Assembly: GCF_022549215.1 (NCBI RefSeq)
Contig: NZ_JAKZFC010000001.1
Coordinates: forward strand, 1,116,001-1,180,000
Direction: 5' to 3'
DNA from: Solibacillus palustris
Lineage (GTDB): Bacteria > Bacillota > Bacilli > Bacillales_A > Planococcaceae
Length of the DNA: 64,000 bases
A model generated the notes under the pieces. The model was given only the letters and a program-made list of their open reading frames with translations, made no database searches and was not told where the DNA came from. Every line of letters begins with the position of its first letter. Position 1 is the first letter of the stretch. The translations under genes were made by a program, and so were the position numbers. Shown here piece after piece: positions 21,271 through 27,956 of the stretch.

Positions 21271-21321
21271 AAACAAGGTATGCCACTTACGAAATCACGT
21301 AAGCGACACACCTTGTTTTTT
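21271..21321. terminator. Terminator between DUF4181-like gene and prenyl synthase gene
   Basis: AACAAGGT / ACCTTGTT outer stem and CTTACG / CGTAAG inner stem with a small internal loop, followed by a T-run on the + strand. Confidence 0.82.
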
Positions 21322-22142
21322 TAATCCTGTTGTACTTCTTCCACAGTTGCTTCTACTTCGGCACGGGACATTTTTTCACGGCCATCACGCATTGCTTGTA
21401 GCGTTTTATGGGCTAATGCGAGTGGGAGTTTGCAGAACAACTTAATGGAACGTTTGTCTAAATCTTTCATGTAAAGGTCGGCTTTTTCTAAGTTTTCCTC
21501 GGCGTAAGCAAACAGCTCGGCGCGTGTCCAGTTATCAGGTACGAAGCTTACACCACGATCATCTAAATCTTCTTGCTCATTACGTAAAATATTCACTGCC
21601 TGTAAGCCACGACCATAACCAATTGCAAGCTCGCGGTCTGTTTTTGTGCCTGCGCTCCATTCCCAAAGGTCAGAAAGCATGACACCTACTAAGCCGGCTA
21701 CGTAATATGTATAGTCGTCTAAATCTTCCTTCGTATGCACTTGCCAGTTTGCGAGTGCCCATTTAGCCATACCCTCAGCCATTTCGCTCGTTGCTGACAT
21801 GACGATTGTACGCGCATCTTGTGGACATACTTCTAGCCAGTCTGCTAAACGTGTTGTTACCTCAGGCATTTTATCTGCTACAGGCGCTAATGCCTCGATG
21901 TAAGCAGCGTTATCGAATGTAGGGGCTTTTAAAATCGCTGCTACTCTTAATAAGGTTGTGTTTTTTATTTCATTTGAAACGTCTTCGTGGTCTTCAATTT
22001 CATCAATAGCACGCATAGCTAAATAGGCGGCTGCGACCGTTAGTTTTAATTCTTTATCTAAAAAGGTAATTGGGATATAAAATGTACGGCTCGTTTCTTT
22101 TAATACGCGCATCGCATCTTTTTGTAATTGTTTGATTGTCAT
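21321..22142 (-). CDS. Squalene/phytoene synthase family protein
   Basis: This 273-residue all-helical protein shows both aspartate-rich motifs of head-to-head prenyl synthases, AIDEIEDHED near residue 51 and NEQEDLDD near 180, plus TSRTFYIPI at the N-terminus. Family members condense two C15 or C20 prenyl diphosphates. B. subtilis YisP, a relative, instead hydrolyses farnesyl diphosphate. No desaturase or hopene cyclase lies nearby, so the product is unknown. The start is ATG 22142 with GGAGG 9 nt upstream. Confidence 0.8.
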   Translation of the reverse strand: MTIKQLQKDAMRVLKETSRTFYIPITFLDKELKLTVAAAYLAMRAIDEIEDHEDVSNEIKNTTLLRVAAILKAPTFDNAAYIEALAPVADKMPEVTTRLADWLEVCPQDARTIVMSATSEMAEGMAKWALANWQVHTKEDLDDYTYYVAGLVGVMLSDLWEWSAGTKTDRELAIGYGRGLQAVNILRNEQEDLDDRGVSFVPDNWTRAELFAYAEENLEKADLYMKDLDKRSIKLFCKLPLALAHKTLQAMRDGREKMSRAEVEATVEEVQQD

Positions 22143-22349
22143 ACGAAGCATCCTCCAATATCTATTGCATCCATCTATTATCGTAACGCAAATTGACAAA
22201 AAGTGAAAATAAAAGTTCTGTTAATGTTTTTGCTAGTGGTGAAATGTGGATATTTATCTGTATTTGACTGTCTAAATTTTTAAAATCATATGGAATTTTG
22301 TTAAAGAATATAGAAAATTATTGTAATATAAATGGGAGGAGTGAGGAAA

Positions 22350-23096: not shown

Positions 23097-23438
23097 TCAC
23101 ATACTCGAAATAATTTTTGCGAACATATAAAAACTGCCATTAATTAAGCAAATGATTAATGCTGAAAATGCATATGATTTACTGTTTTTAAATTCGTAAA
23201 TAAAGGTGATTACACCGAGAATAAATAAACCAATCCAGCTACTATCCCACAAAATACTTGCTAATTTATCAGGGAAAAGCGTGTAAACGCCAGTTAAAAA
23301 ACAGGTCCAAATAACAGCAGTTGAACTGAAAAAAATGTAACTTAATTTAGATGCCTTTACTGTATTGCCTTTTACTAAATAAAGCGTGGCAACAATACAA
23401 ATGCTTATGAAAACAACGATTAGAAGTATAAGTGACAA
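23097..23438 (-). CDS. Small four-helix membrane protein behind amj
   Basis: This product of about 113 residues has four hydrophobic segments and no recognised motif. TTG 23438 lies 8 nt after GGAGG; the in-frame TTG at 23453 overlaps that ribosome site. It follows the amj gene by about 18 nt, so it is probably cotranscribed and may share its envelope-stress control. Function unknown. Confidence 0.6.
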   Translation of the reverse strand: MSLILLIVVFISICIVATLYLVKGNTVKASKLSYIFFSSTAVIWTCFLTGVYTLFPDKLASILWDSSWIGLFILGVITFIYEFKNSKSYAFSALIICLINGSFYMFAKIISSM

Positions 23439-23456
23439 AACGTTATCCTCCAATAT

Positions 23457-24272
23457 TTAGCCAATGAATTTGGCGAACCATGCAACATAATGTGAAGCAG
23501 GAATAAAGATTATTTGGGCAAATAGTGTACCTAAAAATCTTGAGCTCATCATCATAATGGAAGCCCTTTTTAAATGTACATAGCTTCCTTGATTATTAAT
23601 GACTGCATCTGCAAGTAGAGATATTTTTGGATCAATGAAAACAATTAATAACATCGTTCCAATACCGTTTATAAGTCCGGAAGCCATAATGGCTGTTGTT
23701 TTATATTCAGGTACTAATAAGCTTGCATATAATGCGGAAAACACACCGGTTGTATAAACTGCTGTCACGATAACGTTAATTAGAAATAACCTTTTTGGTA
23801 CATCTTTTAATCCGATGCCTCGTAAATATGAAAAACGAGGCTTACGAATATGTCCTACTGCACGACGTAAATATTCGAATGATATCCCTTTTTTGAATAA
23901 GGCGGGAATAGACCCACGTTCTGCGACTAAATGAATAATGGCTCTAGAAAAGATTGCGACAAATGTAGGGAGTAATAGCATTCCAATTAATGTGCCTAAT
24001 GAGGCAGAACCCAGAATAAAACGAAATTGATTTTCTACAAATTGAAGTGTGTTTTCAGGAGGGGCGTTATCGATTAAACTCCCTGTAAAAGGTTGCTGCA
24101 TCATGTTTGATAATCTTGAAAACATCACCATAATATTGAAAAGTGATAATGCAGAGGCTAATAAACGTGCACGCGCTCCAGATAATCGAACAGCATAAGC
24201 CAGTGTTTCGATTGAATGGATAATCAAAATAAATAAAGCAATAATAATAACCTTTCCTGTTATCAGTTCCAT
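23457..24272 (-). CDS. amj: Lipid II flippase Amj
   Basis: This 271-residue polytopic protein matches the Amj (YdaH) family in length and sequence layout (IHSIETLAYAVRLSGARA at the start, RGSIPALFKKGISFEYLRRA in the middle). Amj is the alternate lipid II flippase of B. subtilis that can replace MurJ and is induced through SigM. ATG 24272 has GGGAG 10 nt upstream; the in-frame TTG at 24281 is too close. An ECF-type promoter is visible 35-60 nt upstream, consistent with that regulation. Confidence 0.88.
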   Translation of the reverse strand: MELITGKVIIIALFILIIHSIETLAYAVRLSGARARLLASALSLFNIMVMFSRLSNMMQQPFTGSLIDNAPPENTLQFVENQFRFILGSASLGTLIGMLLLPTFVAIFSRAIIHLVAERGSIPALFKKGISFEYLRRAVGHIRKPRFSYLRGIGLKDVPKRLFLINVIVTAVYTTGVFSALYASLLVPEYKTTAIMASGLINGIGTMLLIVFIDPKISLLADAVINNQGSYVHLKRASIMMMSSRFLGTLFAQIIFIPASHYVAWFAKFIG

Positions 24273-24306
24273 TTTACACAAACTCCCAAATGTTATTTTG
24301 TGGTTT

Positions 24307-24332
24307 GACGTTTTGTTTGGAAAATAGTTTCT
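24307..24332 (-). promoter_or_regulatory. ECF-sigma (SigM-type) promoter of amj
   Basis: On the minus strand AGAAAC (24332-24327), exactly 16 nt, then CGTC (24310-24307). This matches the SigM/W/X-type consensus TGAAAC-N16-CGTC at all but the first base. Confidence 0.7.
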
Positions 24333-24469
24333 AGTGGTTTTATAGGAATGTTAGAACTTTTATTTTGAAATGAACGGTTTGGAGTATTTTTTCACGATCT
24401 TAGGAACATTGTTTTATTAGCTTATTAGCTCAAATTTATACTGTTAAATAATACAATTTTATAAAATTA

Positions 24470-24519
24470 TTGAAACTGACAACCTTGTCACTTTATAATA
24501 GTGACAAGGTTGTCAGTTT
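24470..24519 (+). promoter_or_regulatory. Promoter inside a 47-bp palindromic operator (TetR-type)
   Basis: Two perfectly complementary 20-nt arms (24473-24492 and 24500-24519) flank a 7-nt centre that is itself the -10 (TATAAT 24494-24499). TTGAAA (24470-24475) gives the -35 at 18 nt. The symmetric core is TGACAAGGTTGTCA-like. A bound dimer pair would block the -10. The right arm is followed by a T-run, so a read-through transcript from upstream could also terminate here. Confidence 0.8.
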
Positions 24520-24549
24520 TTTGCTTTATATTATGAAAAGGGGGACATT

Positions 24550-26412
24550 ATGATGACTAGTGTTACTTATTCAACGCATCTGTATAAAAATAAGTCTTTT
24601 TTATTTTTAATTGCCTCTCAAATTGTTTCGGCTATTGGTAATTGGTTGGATATTTTAGCCATTATGACTTTGGTTGCTGTAAAATGGAATGCTTCACCAT
24701 TGGCGGTGTCTGGTGTCATGCTAGTGTTTGTTGGTCCTATGGTTTTGTTTGGTCCGATTAGTGGGGTTCTAAGTGATCGTATTGAAAGACGATTCATCAT
24801 GGTACTATCTGATTTAGTGTGCTTGGTTCTCGTTCTAGGGGTAGCTTTTTCAACAGAGTTATGGCAAGTATATGTTTTGTTGTTTTTGAAAAGTTCATTT
24901 GTTGCATTATTTATTCCCGCAAAAAATGGTAAATTAAAAGAAATCGTAGAAGAAGACCAAATTCAAACTGCAATGGGAATTAGCGCAATGATTGATAATG
25001 GGGCAAAAATTATTGGCCCCGTACTTAGTGGAATGGTTGTTGCTACGTTAGGCATTCAATTGGCATTTTATATTGATGCGTTTACGTTTGCTTTGTCAGC
25101 CCTATTACTACTTGGAGTCCCAAAGTATGATCGTAAAGTTGTAGCAAAGGAAATCGAACAAAAGAAGTTGATGATATTTTCAAATTTACTAGTAGAGATG
25201 AAAGAAGGTTTTACTTTCCTTAAAGGGATTCCTGTTATTTTAGTTAGTTTGATTATTAGTACATTACTGCTTCTCGTTTTACAAATTGCCGATACACAAT
25301 TTATGGTCCTTTTAAGGGAGATCTTTAAAGATCCAGTAACCGTTGCGGGTTATAGCATGGCAGCTAGTGGTGGAGGAATGTTTATAGCATCCGCTATCTT
25401 TACAAAAAAACAAATTCATTCGACGCTAAATTGTATGTTTTTTGGAGCTTTTGGCCTTGGAATTTCATTGATAGCAGTTGCTGCTATGTCACATCTTTCC
25501 ACTACATTTCTTACAATTGCCTATCCTATGTTATTTTTTTTAGCTGGCTTTTCATTTGGTTCAGCGATTATTCCTTTAAATATCCTTGCACAAAAAATTA
25601 CTCCAGTAGATAAAACTGGGCGTGTGTTCGGAATAATCAACAGTATGACGACACTTGGGACATTAATTGGAATGGTTTTAGGGGGAATTCTATCCGAAGT
25701 GTTTGGTGTTGTAATGACATTCATTGTATCAGGTACATCCTTGGTTGTGGTGAGCTTGTTAACCATTATTATTAAATCTCTATCGAAAGTAGGTATCGAA
25801 ATGTCACCTAAAGTATCGCAACAATATAAAGAAAATCGCAAACATGAGCTATTGAAGGCTGCAGAATCGGCATTCTGTCAAAAGGGGTTCGAACCAACAA
25901 CAATGAAAGATGTTGTTGAATTGTCAGGGATGAGCCGAGGCGGAGTATATCAATATTTTTCTAGTACAGAAGAAATGTTGAAGAGCATTCTGGCAGAAAG
26001 AGACGAACAGTTTGAAAAGAAAATTCATGATTTTATCAAAAGTAATCAACCTGTTTGGGAAACGATAGAGACTATATTAGATGCGTATAATAAAGAATCA
26101 TTCCATAAAATTAGCGCCGTTACTTATGAATATTTTGTTACGGGGTGGCGAAGTGAAGGAATGGAGCGTATTCCTTATTTATTAACACGCTTTAATCGTG
26201 CAAGGGAGAACTATATTAAACTGCTTGAAAAAGGAGTGGAAACAGGTGAATTTGATCCGATACAGCCACTTCATACGATTGCTACCTTTTTAATCAATGT
26301 TACTGATGGCATCTTATTACAAACACATCTCGCTGGAAATAAGGAAGTTGACACAGAAGGACAGTTAGAAGCTTTGAAACTATACCTTAGAACGGTGTTA
26401 CAAATAAACTAG
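24550..26412 (+). CDS. In-frame fusion of MFS exporter and TetR-family regulator
   Basis: This 620-residue protein has two parts. Residues 1 to about 410 form a 12-helix MFS exporter of the DHA3 type, with GVLSDRIERR as the loop 2-3 motif. Residues 418-620 form a complete TetR regulator with helix-turn-helix TTMKDVVELSGMSRGGVYQYF, starting MSPKVSQQY exactly where free YfiR-like repressors start. B. subtilis has neighbouring separate YfiS (MFS) and YfiR (TetR) proteins; here the two are one chain. There is no stop or frameshift between them. An internal ATG (25801) behind AAAGTAGG could also make free repressor. ATG 24550 follows AAAAGGGG. Confidence 0.88.
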   Translation: MMTSVTYSTHLYKNKSFLFLIASQIVSAIGNWLDILAIMTLVAVKWNASPLAVSGVMLVFVGPMVLFGPISGVLSDRIERRFIMVLSDLVCLVLVLGVAFSTELWQVYVLLFLKSSFVALFIPAKNGKLKEIVEEDQIQTAMGISAMIDNGAKIIGPVLSGMVVATLGIQLAFYIDAFTFALSALLLLGVPKYDRKVVAKEIEQKKLMIFSNLLVEMKEGFTFLKGIPVILVSLIISTLLLLVLQIADTQFMVLLREIFKDPVTVAGYSMAASGGGMFIASAIFTKKQIHSTLNCMFFGAFGLGISLIAVAAMSHLSTTFLTIAYPMLFFLAGFSFGSAIIPLNILAQKITPVDKTGRVFGIINSMTTLGTLIGMVLGGILSEVFGVVMTFIVSGTSLVVVSLLTIIIKSLSKVGIEMSPKVSQQYKENRKHELLKAAESAFCQKGFEPTTMKDVVELSGMSRGGVYQYFSSTEEMLKSILAERDEQFEKKIHDFIKSNQPVWETIETILDAYNKESFHKISAVTYEYFVTGWRSEGMERIPYLLTRFNRARENYIKLLEKGVETGEFDPIQPLHTIATFLINVTDGILLQTHLAGNKEVDTEGQLEALKLYLRTVLQIN

Positions 26413-26457
26413 TTATTTATAAATGTTTCCTTTATTAAATATTTTTAAATTACCCTT

Positions 26458-26541
26458 AAGACCAATCTGTATTGAACTCCACCTTAATTGTTAGGGCATC
26501 TAATTTTAAGGTTAAATCATTCACGGAAATTGGTCTTTTTG
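26458..26541 (+). terminator. Long-range hairpin with T-run after the fusion gene
   Basis: AAGACCAAT (26458-26466) pairs with ATTGGTCTT (26529-26537), which is followed by TTTG. Inside, ACCTTAA pairs with TTAAGGT (26481-26512). The nested layout is longer than a usual terminator and may be a decayed mobile-element end; I cannot tell. Confidence 0.45.
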
Positions 26542-26590
26542 TATTTCGGAATATCTAATGAATAGATCTAAAAAACTTCTTACTACTATC

Positions 26591-26619
26591 TTACAATTTA
26601 TGTAATTATGGTGTATATT
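26591..26619 (+). promoter_or_regulatory. Candidate promoter of the leader-MFS unit
   Basis: TTACAA (26591-26596), 17 nt, TATATT (26614-26619), about 30 nt before the leader ORF. Confidence 0.5.
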
Positions 26620-26649
26620 TTACTAATCAAATTAAAAGGAGAGAGGAAT

Positions 26650-26703
26650 ATGTTAGCCATTACTTTAACAATCAAAAACGAATCGGAGGATATGTTGGTT
26701 TAA
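26650..26703 (+). CDS. 17-residue leader peptide of the MFS gene
   Basis: MLAITLTIKNESEDMLV follows a good AAAGGAGAGAGGA ribosome site. It lies between the promoter and the MFS start. Codons 11-14 lie in the first of three mutually complementary RNA segments, so translation of this peptide could decide which hairpin forms. The layout resembles the translational attenuators of antibiotic-resistance genes; the inducing drug cannot be guessed. Confidence 0.55.
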   Translation: MLAITLTIKNESEDMLV

Positions 26704-26764
26704 TTTAATATTGTCACTTATTCTCCGATTTGAGTTTCATATTCGACTCAAAAAATTCGGAGGG
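26681..26764 (+). promoter_or_regulatory. Competing hairpins controlling the MFS ribosome site
   Basis: Segment 1 (26681-26690, AATCGGAGGA) can form a 10-bp helix with segment 2 (26721-26730, TTCTCCGATT). Segment 2 can alternatively pair with segment 3 (TCGGAG 26757-26762), which is the ribosome site of the pump gene. A separate 7-bp hairpin (TTTGAGT / ACTCAAA) lies between 2 and 3. Confidence 0.55.
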
Positions 26765-26771
26765 CAAAAAA

Positions 26772-27956
26772 TTGGACATTAAAAACATTTATTATTTTTT
26801 ATCGAGTTCACGTTCGTTTTGTATTCATATCGTATTTACATTAAATGCGATTTATTATGTTTCTCAAGCAGGTTTGAACCCGTTACAGTTGGTTTTAATT
26901 GGAACGATTATGGAATTGGCCATCTTATTCTTTGAAATACCGACTGGATTAGTTGCTGATTTTTGGGGACGAAAAAAATCATTTGTTATTGGGACTTTCA
27001 TTATAGGTGTTGCGCATCTATTAGAAGGAAGTTTCCCCGAATTTTGGGCAATTGCAATAGGTGCTGCTTTATGGGGCATTGGATGGACATTCATTAGTGG
27101 TGCAGAAACGGCATGGATTGCGGACGAGTTAGAAAATAATGAATTAGATTCTGTTTTTCTAAAAGGCGCTAGGTATGGCTCAATTGGTAGTTTCTTGGGG
27201 ATTATTGTTAGCGTCCTTTTAGCTACTGCTTTTTCGGTGCAAATTGCAATCTTAATAGCGGGTGGATTGCTCGTTGTCATTGCAATGATTTCTTTAAGAA
27301 TCGTACCTGAAACAAAATTTGTGCGGATGGCCAATGATGAGACGACAGGTTTTCATCAAATGCAGCAAGCAATCAAGGGCGGATTTGCTCAAATAAAAGG
27401 TAATTCAATTTTACTTGGTCTTGCTGCTATTACGTTATTTGTGGGATTGGCTAGCGAAGGTTTTGATAGACTTTGGGGTGCTCATTTTATAGAAGGTTTT
27501 CAATTGAAGGCAGAAGAAGCAGTTTACTGGTTTGGTGCATTTTACGCAATTGCCTTTTTATTAAATATAGGTATTTTAAAAGTTGTCGAAACGTATGTGA
27601 AAAAACGTTTTACGTGCCTTTTACTAGTACTTAATGGATTGCTCGTCATGGCTATGCTGTTCTTCGCAATGAGTGAGGAGTTTATACTGGCAATATTACT
27701 ATACTGGGTAATTGCTTCGCTACGAGCAGTAAATTCACCATTAATAACTGTTGTAACGAATAAACAATTACAATCACAAGGTCGTGCAACTGCGCTTTCC
27801 ATGTATGGTCAGCTTGATGCATTTGGTCAAGTAGCTGGCGGACCATTAGTAGGGATGGTTGCTCTTTATACATCGGTTCAAGGTGGAATTATTATGTCTG
27901 CTATTTTAATCATTCCTACAGTGTACTTTTTATGGAGAATGCGGAAAATAGCTTAA
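26772..27956 (+). CDS. MFS efflux transporter
   Basis: This 394-residue, 12-helix MFS exporter has the drug-efflux loop motif GLVADFWGRKKS after helix 2. It starts with TTG at 26772, 8 nt after CGGAGGG; the open frame upstream would read through the leader hairpins without a ribosome site. It is preceded by a leader peptide and alternative hairpins and followed by a strong terminator. It belongs to the drug:H+ antiporter group; the substrate is unknown. Confidence 0.82.
   Translation: MDIKNIYYFLSSSRSFCIHIVFTLNAIYYVSQAGLNPLQLVLIGTIMELAILFFEIPTGLVADFWGRKKSFVIGTFIIGVAHLLEGSFPEFWAIAIGAALWGIGWTFISGAETAWIADELENNELDSVFLKGARYGSIGSFLGIIVSVLLATAFSVQIAILIAGGLLVVIAMISLRIVPETKFVRMANDETTGFHQMQQAIKGGFAQIKGNSILLGLAAITLFVGLASEGFDRLWGAHFIEGFQLKAEEAVYWFGAFYAIAFLLNIGILKVVETYVKKRFTCLLLVLNGLLVMAMLFFAMSEEFILAILLYWVIASLRAVNSPLITVVTNKQLQSQGRATALSMYGQLDAFGQVAGGPLVGMVALYTSVQGGIIMSAILIIPTVYFLWRMRKIA

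Follow-up and report, generated by a model that had tools for sequence, protein, structure and literature searches.

An MFS exporter joined in frame to a YfiR-type TetR repressor in Solibacillus palustris, with a probable second start for free repressor and paired candidate operators around the promoter

The window, i.e. the whole 64,000-nucleotide stretch of Solibacillus palustris DNA under analysis, contains a single gene in which a Major Facilitator Superfamily (MFS) exporter is followed, in the same reading frame, by a complete TetR-type repressor. The coding features are as follows.

24550-26412, forward strand: fused ORF of 620 amino acids, MFS exporter plus YfiR-type TetR (basis: ORF, Pfam, YfiR alignment, conservation in the genus)
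24583-25779, forward strand: MFS exporter part, residues about 12-410, last helix predicted at 387-415 (Pfam, model)
25801-26412, forward strand: TetR repressor of 203 amino acids with its own ATG at 25801, expected as a second product (Pfam, YfiR alignment, internal Shine-Dalgarno)

The ORF is read from end to end with no internal stop, and above the curated cut-offs of Pfam it holds MFS_1 at residues 22-370 (147.3 bits, cut-off 33.4), TetR_N with its helix-turn-helix at residues 434-479 (46.2 bits, cut-off 24) and a full-length TetR_C_17, the C-terminal ligand domain, at residues 519-601 (77.3 bits, cut-off 26.1). Residues 1-202 of YfiR from B. subtilis (1rkt_A) align on residues 418-620, that is on 1-202 of the TetR part and over its whole length (E=4.2e-49), and since the alignment sets out from the first residue of YfiR, Met418 corresponds to the beginning of that protein. 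Both the 620-residue in-frame ORF and the start of its TetR part at the place where free YfiR-type repressors start, as claimed in a preliminary description of this DNA, were thereby borne out. Only the window ORF, out of 17 matches in the whole genome, covers both halves. The best NCBIfam model for the pump was TIGR00900 (H+ antiporter 2A0121) with 173.8 bits, a score so far under its cut-off of 319.6 that the substrate class of the pump is left without assignment. The AlphaFold model of the 620-residue chain has a mean pLDDT of 76.9, with the MFS part mostly confident and much of the TetR part under 50; in this model, mostly of low confidence in its TetR half, a four-residue break separates the last pump helix (387-415) from the first TetR helix (420-444), suggesting a short linker. 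A DNA-binding domain and transmembrane helices are thus found in one chain, as in ToxR/CadC-type proteins, judging from the single ORF and the helices of the model.

The surroundings of the gene include the following element.

26458-26540, forward strand: terminator-like hairpin AAGACCAAT...ATTGGTCTTTTTG after the ORF (folding -26.4 kcal/mol over 26420-26545, z -3.3)

This hairpin does not figure in the list of the simple terminator scan. Directly upstream of the locus, on the other strand, lies a gene of the Amj family (Alternate to MurJ; 23457-24281, 321 bits). Downstream, the MFS gene at 26730-27956 is by its sequence akin to tetracycline exporters: it matches TetA(P) at E=1e-82 and Tet(40) at 1e-69, in either case with a score far short of the NCBIfam cut-off. 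Its likely start is TTG 26772, with Shine-Dalgarno GGAGGG. Ahead of this gene is a leader ORF of 17 residues, which has a good Shine-Dalgarno and contains AATCGGAG, and a predicted fold at 26650-26785 pairs the Shine-Dalgarno of the MFS gene with the upstream CTCCGATTTGAGT (z -2.2, 5 of 200 shuffles as good), so that this leader region looks like a translation attenuator.

Within the genus, the uninterrupted fused frame was recovered in 4 of 16 genomes belonging to three species: the window genome (G000), G001 of the same species (96% identity to the window gene), and G007 (82%) and G011 (80%) from two other species, the latter three assembled in 1-2 contigs each. The full-protein and the C-terminal search both remained without a match in at least 11 of the 16. 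The fused gene lies between the Amj-family gene and the TetA(P)-like MFS gene in G000 and G001, and in a different neighbourhood, common to both, in G007 and G011. Over five genome pairs with dS of 0.13-1.24, dN/dS was 0.09-0.14 for the MFS half and 0.07-0.15 for the TetR half, while the linker gave 0.4-1.0 in four pairs and an undefined value in the fifth, weak data from some 12 codons that partly lie across a frame difference. It is therefore exceedingly unlikely that the joined frame is a sequencing error or a pseudogene: four assemblies agree, no stop interrupts the gene and both halves are under purifying selection. A frame break near 25790, which the preliminary description had allowed for, was not seen in any of the four. 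In G003, another species of the genus, only about the last 77 TetR residues are left (L070, 1501-1731), with 64% identity and two stops, adjoining relatives of the window genes 21321-22199 and 23097-23453; as judged from this sequence context, the remnant is a decayed copy of the fused-gene locus at the same chromosomal place.

Upstream of the fused ORF, the promoter region is composed of four overlapping features.

24470-24499, forward strand: sigma-A-type promoter, -35 TTGAAA at 24470-24475, 18-nt spacer, -10 TATAAT at 24494-24499 (11/12 consensus matches)
24473-24519, no strand assigned: 47-bp inverted repeat with arms 24473-24492 and 24500-24519 of 20 nt each and a 7-nt gap (arms 100% complementary)
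24477-24490, no strand assigned: candidate operator O1 TGACAACCTTGTCA, between -35 and -10 (shared motif)
24502-24515, no strand assigned: candidate operator O2 TGACAAGGTTGTCA, directly past -10 and 25 bp from O1 (shared motif)

The nine other promoter-like sites in 24300-26750 match 9 consensus positions each. As ten such sites are what shuffled sequence also gives (mean 10.1), it is the quality of the match and its place that support the promoter, and the TATAAT between the arms had rightly been read as its -10. The same preliminary reading took the repeat for one giant palindromic operator. Computation confirms the two perfect 20-nt arms; the single operator was rejected, and two 14-bp TetR sites around the -10 are predicted in its stead. 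Each arm is itself a 14-bp palindrome, TGACA-N4-TGTCA, and among the four fused genomes perfect complementarity of the 20-nt arms is found in the window genome only, though the 14-bp sites are kept in G001, G007 and G011, with one end base of the second site altered in G011. By this comparison of sequences, what is conserved is the 14-bp site that each arm contains. A role of the repeat as an RNA hairpin was likewise rejected, because a transcript starting after 24499 would not include the left arm, which precedes the -10; an Rfam match to MIR6288 at the repeat (20.9 bits, gathering score 74, E 0.87) is due to chance.

The relation of these sites to TetR was followed through a survey of 73 MFS loci, composed of the 4 fused genes and 69 loci from the class, the order of G572 and the family of G350; from the class search only the best 30 loci were taken, and L014-L021 as well as L022-L024 (27-28% identity, no TetR match) were left out. 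A TetR gene or domain directly follows the pump in 51 of the 73 loci, 4 fused and 47 split. When scanned with YGACA-N4-TGTCR, one mismatch between half-sites being allowed, 47 of these 51 loci had at least two sites upstream of the pump and the other four had one, whereas 21 of the 22 loci without TetR had none and the remaining locus had one. This contrast partly reflects kinship, given that 20 of the 22 TetR-less loci come from the class search and encode more distant pumps (36-42% identity); the two nearer ones, L093 and L097, are also without sites. Of the 47 loci with at least two sites, 45 have TATAAT between the first and the second (exceptions L038 and L092), and the spacing of the sites, 25 bp in the fused genes, is 24-36 bp in all others except L092 (44 bp). 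The strict pattern TGACAN4TGTCA occurs at five places in the genome, two of them at this locus, and a reversed control pattern occurs five times as well; hence it is the clustered pair and not the single site that is striking, and the count gives no pointer to a wider regulon. The co-occurrence of predicted operators and TetR across loci ties the repressor to this promoter more firmly than a single repeat could, and supports TetR as its cognate repressor.

The split relatives also disclose how the two frames could have been joined. In every one of the 47 split pairs, all from outside the genus, TetR occupies the +1 frame relative to the pump, and it starts 20-56 nt before the pump stop in all 46 pairs whose start can be placed (L092 left out). 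In 35 of the 46 the pump frame reads GAA/GAG exactly 13 nt before the TetR start, the motif being unmatched or matched elsewhere in the other 11. At the junction of G000 and G001 the 13 nt are kept and GAA is out of pump phase, equivalent to one base fewer before the Shine-Dalgarno, while in G007 and G011 the phase is kept and the distance is 12 nt, equivalent to one base fewer after it. Since the two lineages join the frames at different places, the fusion probably arose twice by independent one-base deletions, which is also the simplest history, counting two events against at least three for a single fusion with compensation. The four fused genes form one clade (support 99/97), and in view of this a single fusion followed by compensating indels is a possible alternative.

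The overlap of pump and TetR, 20-56 nt long and invariably in the +1 frame, extends across many families of the class (L080-L119, L025-L038) and is longer than the usual gene overlaps of 1 or 4 nt (PMC10666635). Other arrangements were met among the loci left out of the survey: in L014-L018 (Sporolactobacillus) TetR follows, without overlap, a separate ORF (414-508 aa) with no match to the window MFS at 1e-6, L019, unlike these, has no separate ORF before TetR, and L020 (Streptohalobacillus) has the reversed order, TetR before MFS. The preliminary statement that relatives keep the two proteins separate thus stands for all 47 split pairs in other families of the class.

A further feature was found at the junction.

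25786-25793, forward strand: internal Shine-Dalgarno AAAGTAGG, 7 nt before the repressor ATG (duplex energy -10.3; 0/88 other starts as good)

All four fused genomes have AAAG(T/A)AGG 6-7 nt before the TetR ATG, with one base in G000 different from the other three, and its pairing with the 16S rRNA tail is worth -9.9 to -10.3 kcal/mol; other start codons of the pump gene are as good or better in 0/88, 0/90, 2/73 and 0/84 cases. The longer motif GAAAG(A/T)AGGT is retained despite a difference in its translation, SKVG/SKEG in G000/G001 but ERR in G007/G011, and its persistence across different reading frames argues for selection on the nucleotides and not on the protein. A downstream start with its own Shine-Dalgarno inside the upstream gene is likewise present in the nine split pairs for which the energy was computed, at -9.3 to -12.6. 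Outside the genus, homologues are accordingly two genes with strong internal starts, the situation that the preliminary description had set against its fused chain, and the start is equally strong inside the genus. Given the strong Shine-Dalgarno and ATG in all four genomes, we infer initiation at ATG 25801, and free TetR is very probably still made from it; with no stop between the halves, a ribosome finishing the pump would continue into TetR, so the tethered form is expected too. The one gene thus probably yields two proteins, a pump tailed by the repressor and the repressor alone.

Taken together, these observations make it quite probable that the locus is an autoregulated efflux operon in which two overlapping genes were joined by a one-base indel, leaving a nested gene and two products. 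Free TetR dimers made from ATG 25801 would bind the two YGACA-N4-TGTCR operators bracketing the -10 and shut the promoter, O1 covering the -35/-10 spacer and O2 the expected transcription start, so that RNA polymerase would be excluded, until a ligand, at a guess by analogy an amphiphilic one, releases the dimers and lets the pump be synthesised. Each pump molecule would then bear a TetR domain on its cytoplasmic C-terminus, ribosomes starting at 25801 would supply the free TetR, and the tethered domain would presumably be tolerated or at most modulate the free repressor, for instance by pairing with its subunits.

What the TetR tail does can be conceived in several ways. The preliminary description had the tethered domain as the working repressor, acting beside the pump with sensing and transport coupled. 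Such a role, in which little or no free TetR would be made, would draw on tethered TetR being made whenever the pump is, on the retention of the fusion in three species and on two different indels each having given a fusion. It is nevertheless improbable, and that claim was not upheld, as the strong internal start is kept in 4/4 fused genomes, the linker drifts (on the weak data given above) and a repressor is needed before any pump exists, a need more simply answered by a free product.

TetR proteins act as dimers, and both forms are expected from one mRNA; the fused form could consequently serve as a decoy, with membrane TetR pairing free subunits or competing for ligand; making the pump would in this way draw down free repressor and sharpen the switch or make it bistable. 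The apparent double origin of the fusion speaks for a decoy. With the pairing geometry left unsettled by the AlphaFold model, we hold a decoy to be unlikely, though less so than a tethered working repressor. The same modest likelihood is given to tethered and free repressor working together, the tethered subunits catching free subunits or ligand at the membrane. If this were true, the promoter would receive direct feedback from how much pump there is and from its transport state, and the two distinct one-base deletions within a single genus would amount to repeated selection for pump-repressor coupling.

Clearly more plausible, at slightly less than an even chance, is a tail that is a neutral passenger, inert or clipped off, in a lineage whose +1 overlap was one deletion away from fusion. 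The +1 frame of all 47 split pairs and the overlap measured in 46 of them accord with a passenger, as do the retained internal start, which keeps up the supply of repressor, the fused form having been found in one clade of one genus only and the mere TetR remnant kept by G003 at the locus. Against it, the joined frame has lasted over the divergence of G007 from G011, with dS of 0.37 for the pump and 0.66 for TetR, and of G000 from G001, the 12-codon linker being a weak test of this. The autoregulated operon with two products and a tolerated or modulating tail remains our preferred account.

Fusions elsewhere were sought within the TetR_C_17 family and the phylum of the window. In 398 genomes of the phylum, PF17922 gave 47 listed matches, with an open frame over 269 aa in G000 only. 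Searches with the full protein (261, 398, 249 and 193 genomes, in overlapping sets) and with the C-terminus (261 genomes) listed no match outside the genus spanning both halves in one open frame; these searches score in full only the best 3-7 candidates per genome, so a distant fusion could escape them. In one of the full-protein searches 31 of 61 rows, two of them L030 and L033, were judged by their open frame alone (at most 467 aa), and matches whose locus was not retrieved did not enter the junction survey. Among the long open frames, those of G342 (599 aa) and G465 (539 aa) were inspected and carry no TetR tail; others belong to G529 (518 aa) and to G402 (559 aa), where the match contains one stop. 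Among plasmids, 150 records matched and none had one place over 80% of the query. At the level of titles and abstract openings among the matches listed, the literature search yielded no MFS-TetR single chain. The preliminary remark that no fused case had been characterised agrees with these genome, plasmid and literature searches, which gave none outside the genus. While its parts and logic are those of standard systems, the locus stands apart by the obligatory union of pump and repressor together with the nested start.

The locus therefore offers a natural and conserved case of a pump obligatorily carrying a repressor beside dozens of split, overlapping relatives, and with them naturally matched pairs in which to ask if regulation changes once sensing and transport are physically coupled. 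It illustrates that one-base indels in overlapping genes can give fusions that are safe because the downstream start is kept, and provides a well-supported operator motif with its cognate regulator for an efflux operon of many class families.

With reference to known systems, the nearest is YfiR of B. subtilis (1rkt), to which the TetR half is alike from end to end; YfiR is a separate protein (chain of 205 residues), whereas the window has a single chain. YfiS, which we take to be the neighbour and pump of YfiR, is presumably the counterpart of the window pump. The yfiS gene is a separate one in B. subtilis, its product is reported to resemble the lipopeptide exporter KrsE and its overexpression raised the surfactin titre, the evidence on which its role as surfactin exporter rests (PMC11124408). 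QacR/QacA and TetR/TetA likewise have a TetR-type repressor of a pump gene with the operator on the promoter, and QacR is a distant sequence relative of the TetR half (E about 3e-6). In both systems the genes are separate and usually divergent; in the window they are co-directional, pump first and repressor second, and fused. Regulators of the ToxR/TfoS type have one or few helices and an extracytoplasmic sensor. Such transmembrane transcriptional regulators place a DNA-binding domain on a membrane protein and can act while anchored (PMC11856585). The window protein differs in having a whole transporter for its membrane part, and its DNA-binding protein is probably also made as a free copy. 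Adjacent genes with homologues fused elsewhere are described as a recognised pattern (PMC3711429). In its split relatives the locus resembles overlapping coupled gene pairs, with co-directional overlap, and departs from the usual pairs by the length of that overlap and by a strong downstream Shine-Dalgarno that the fused form has retained.
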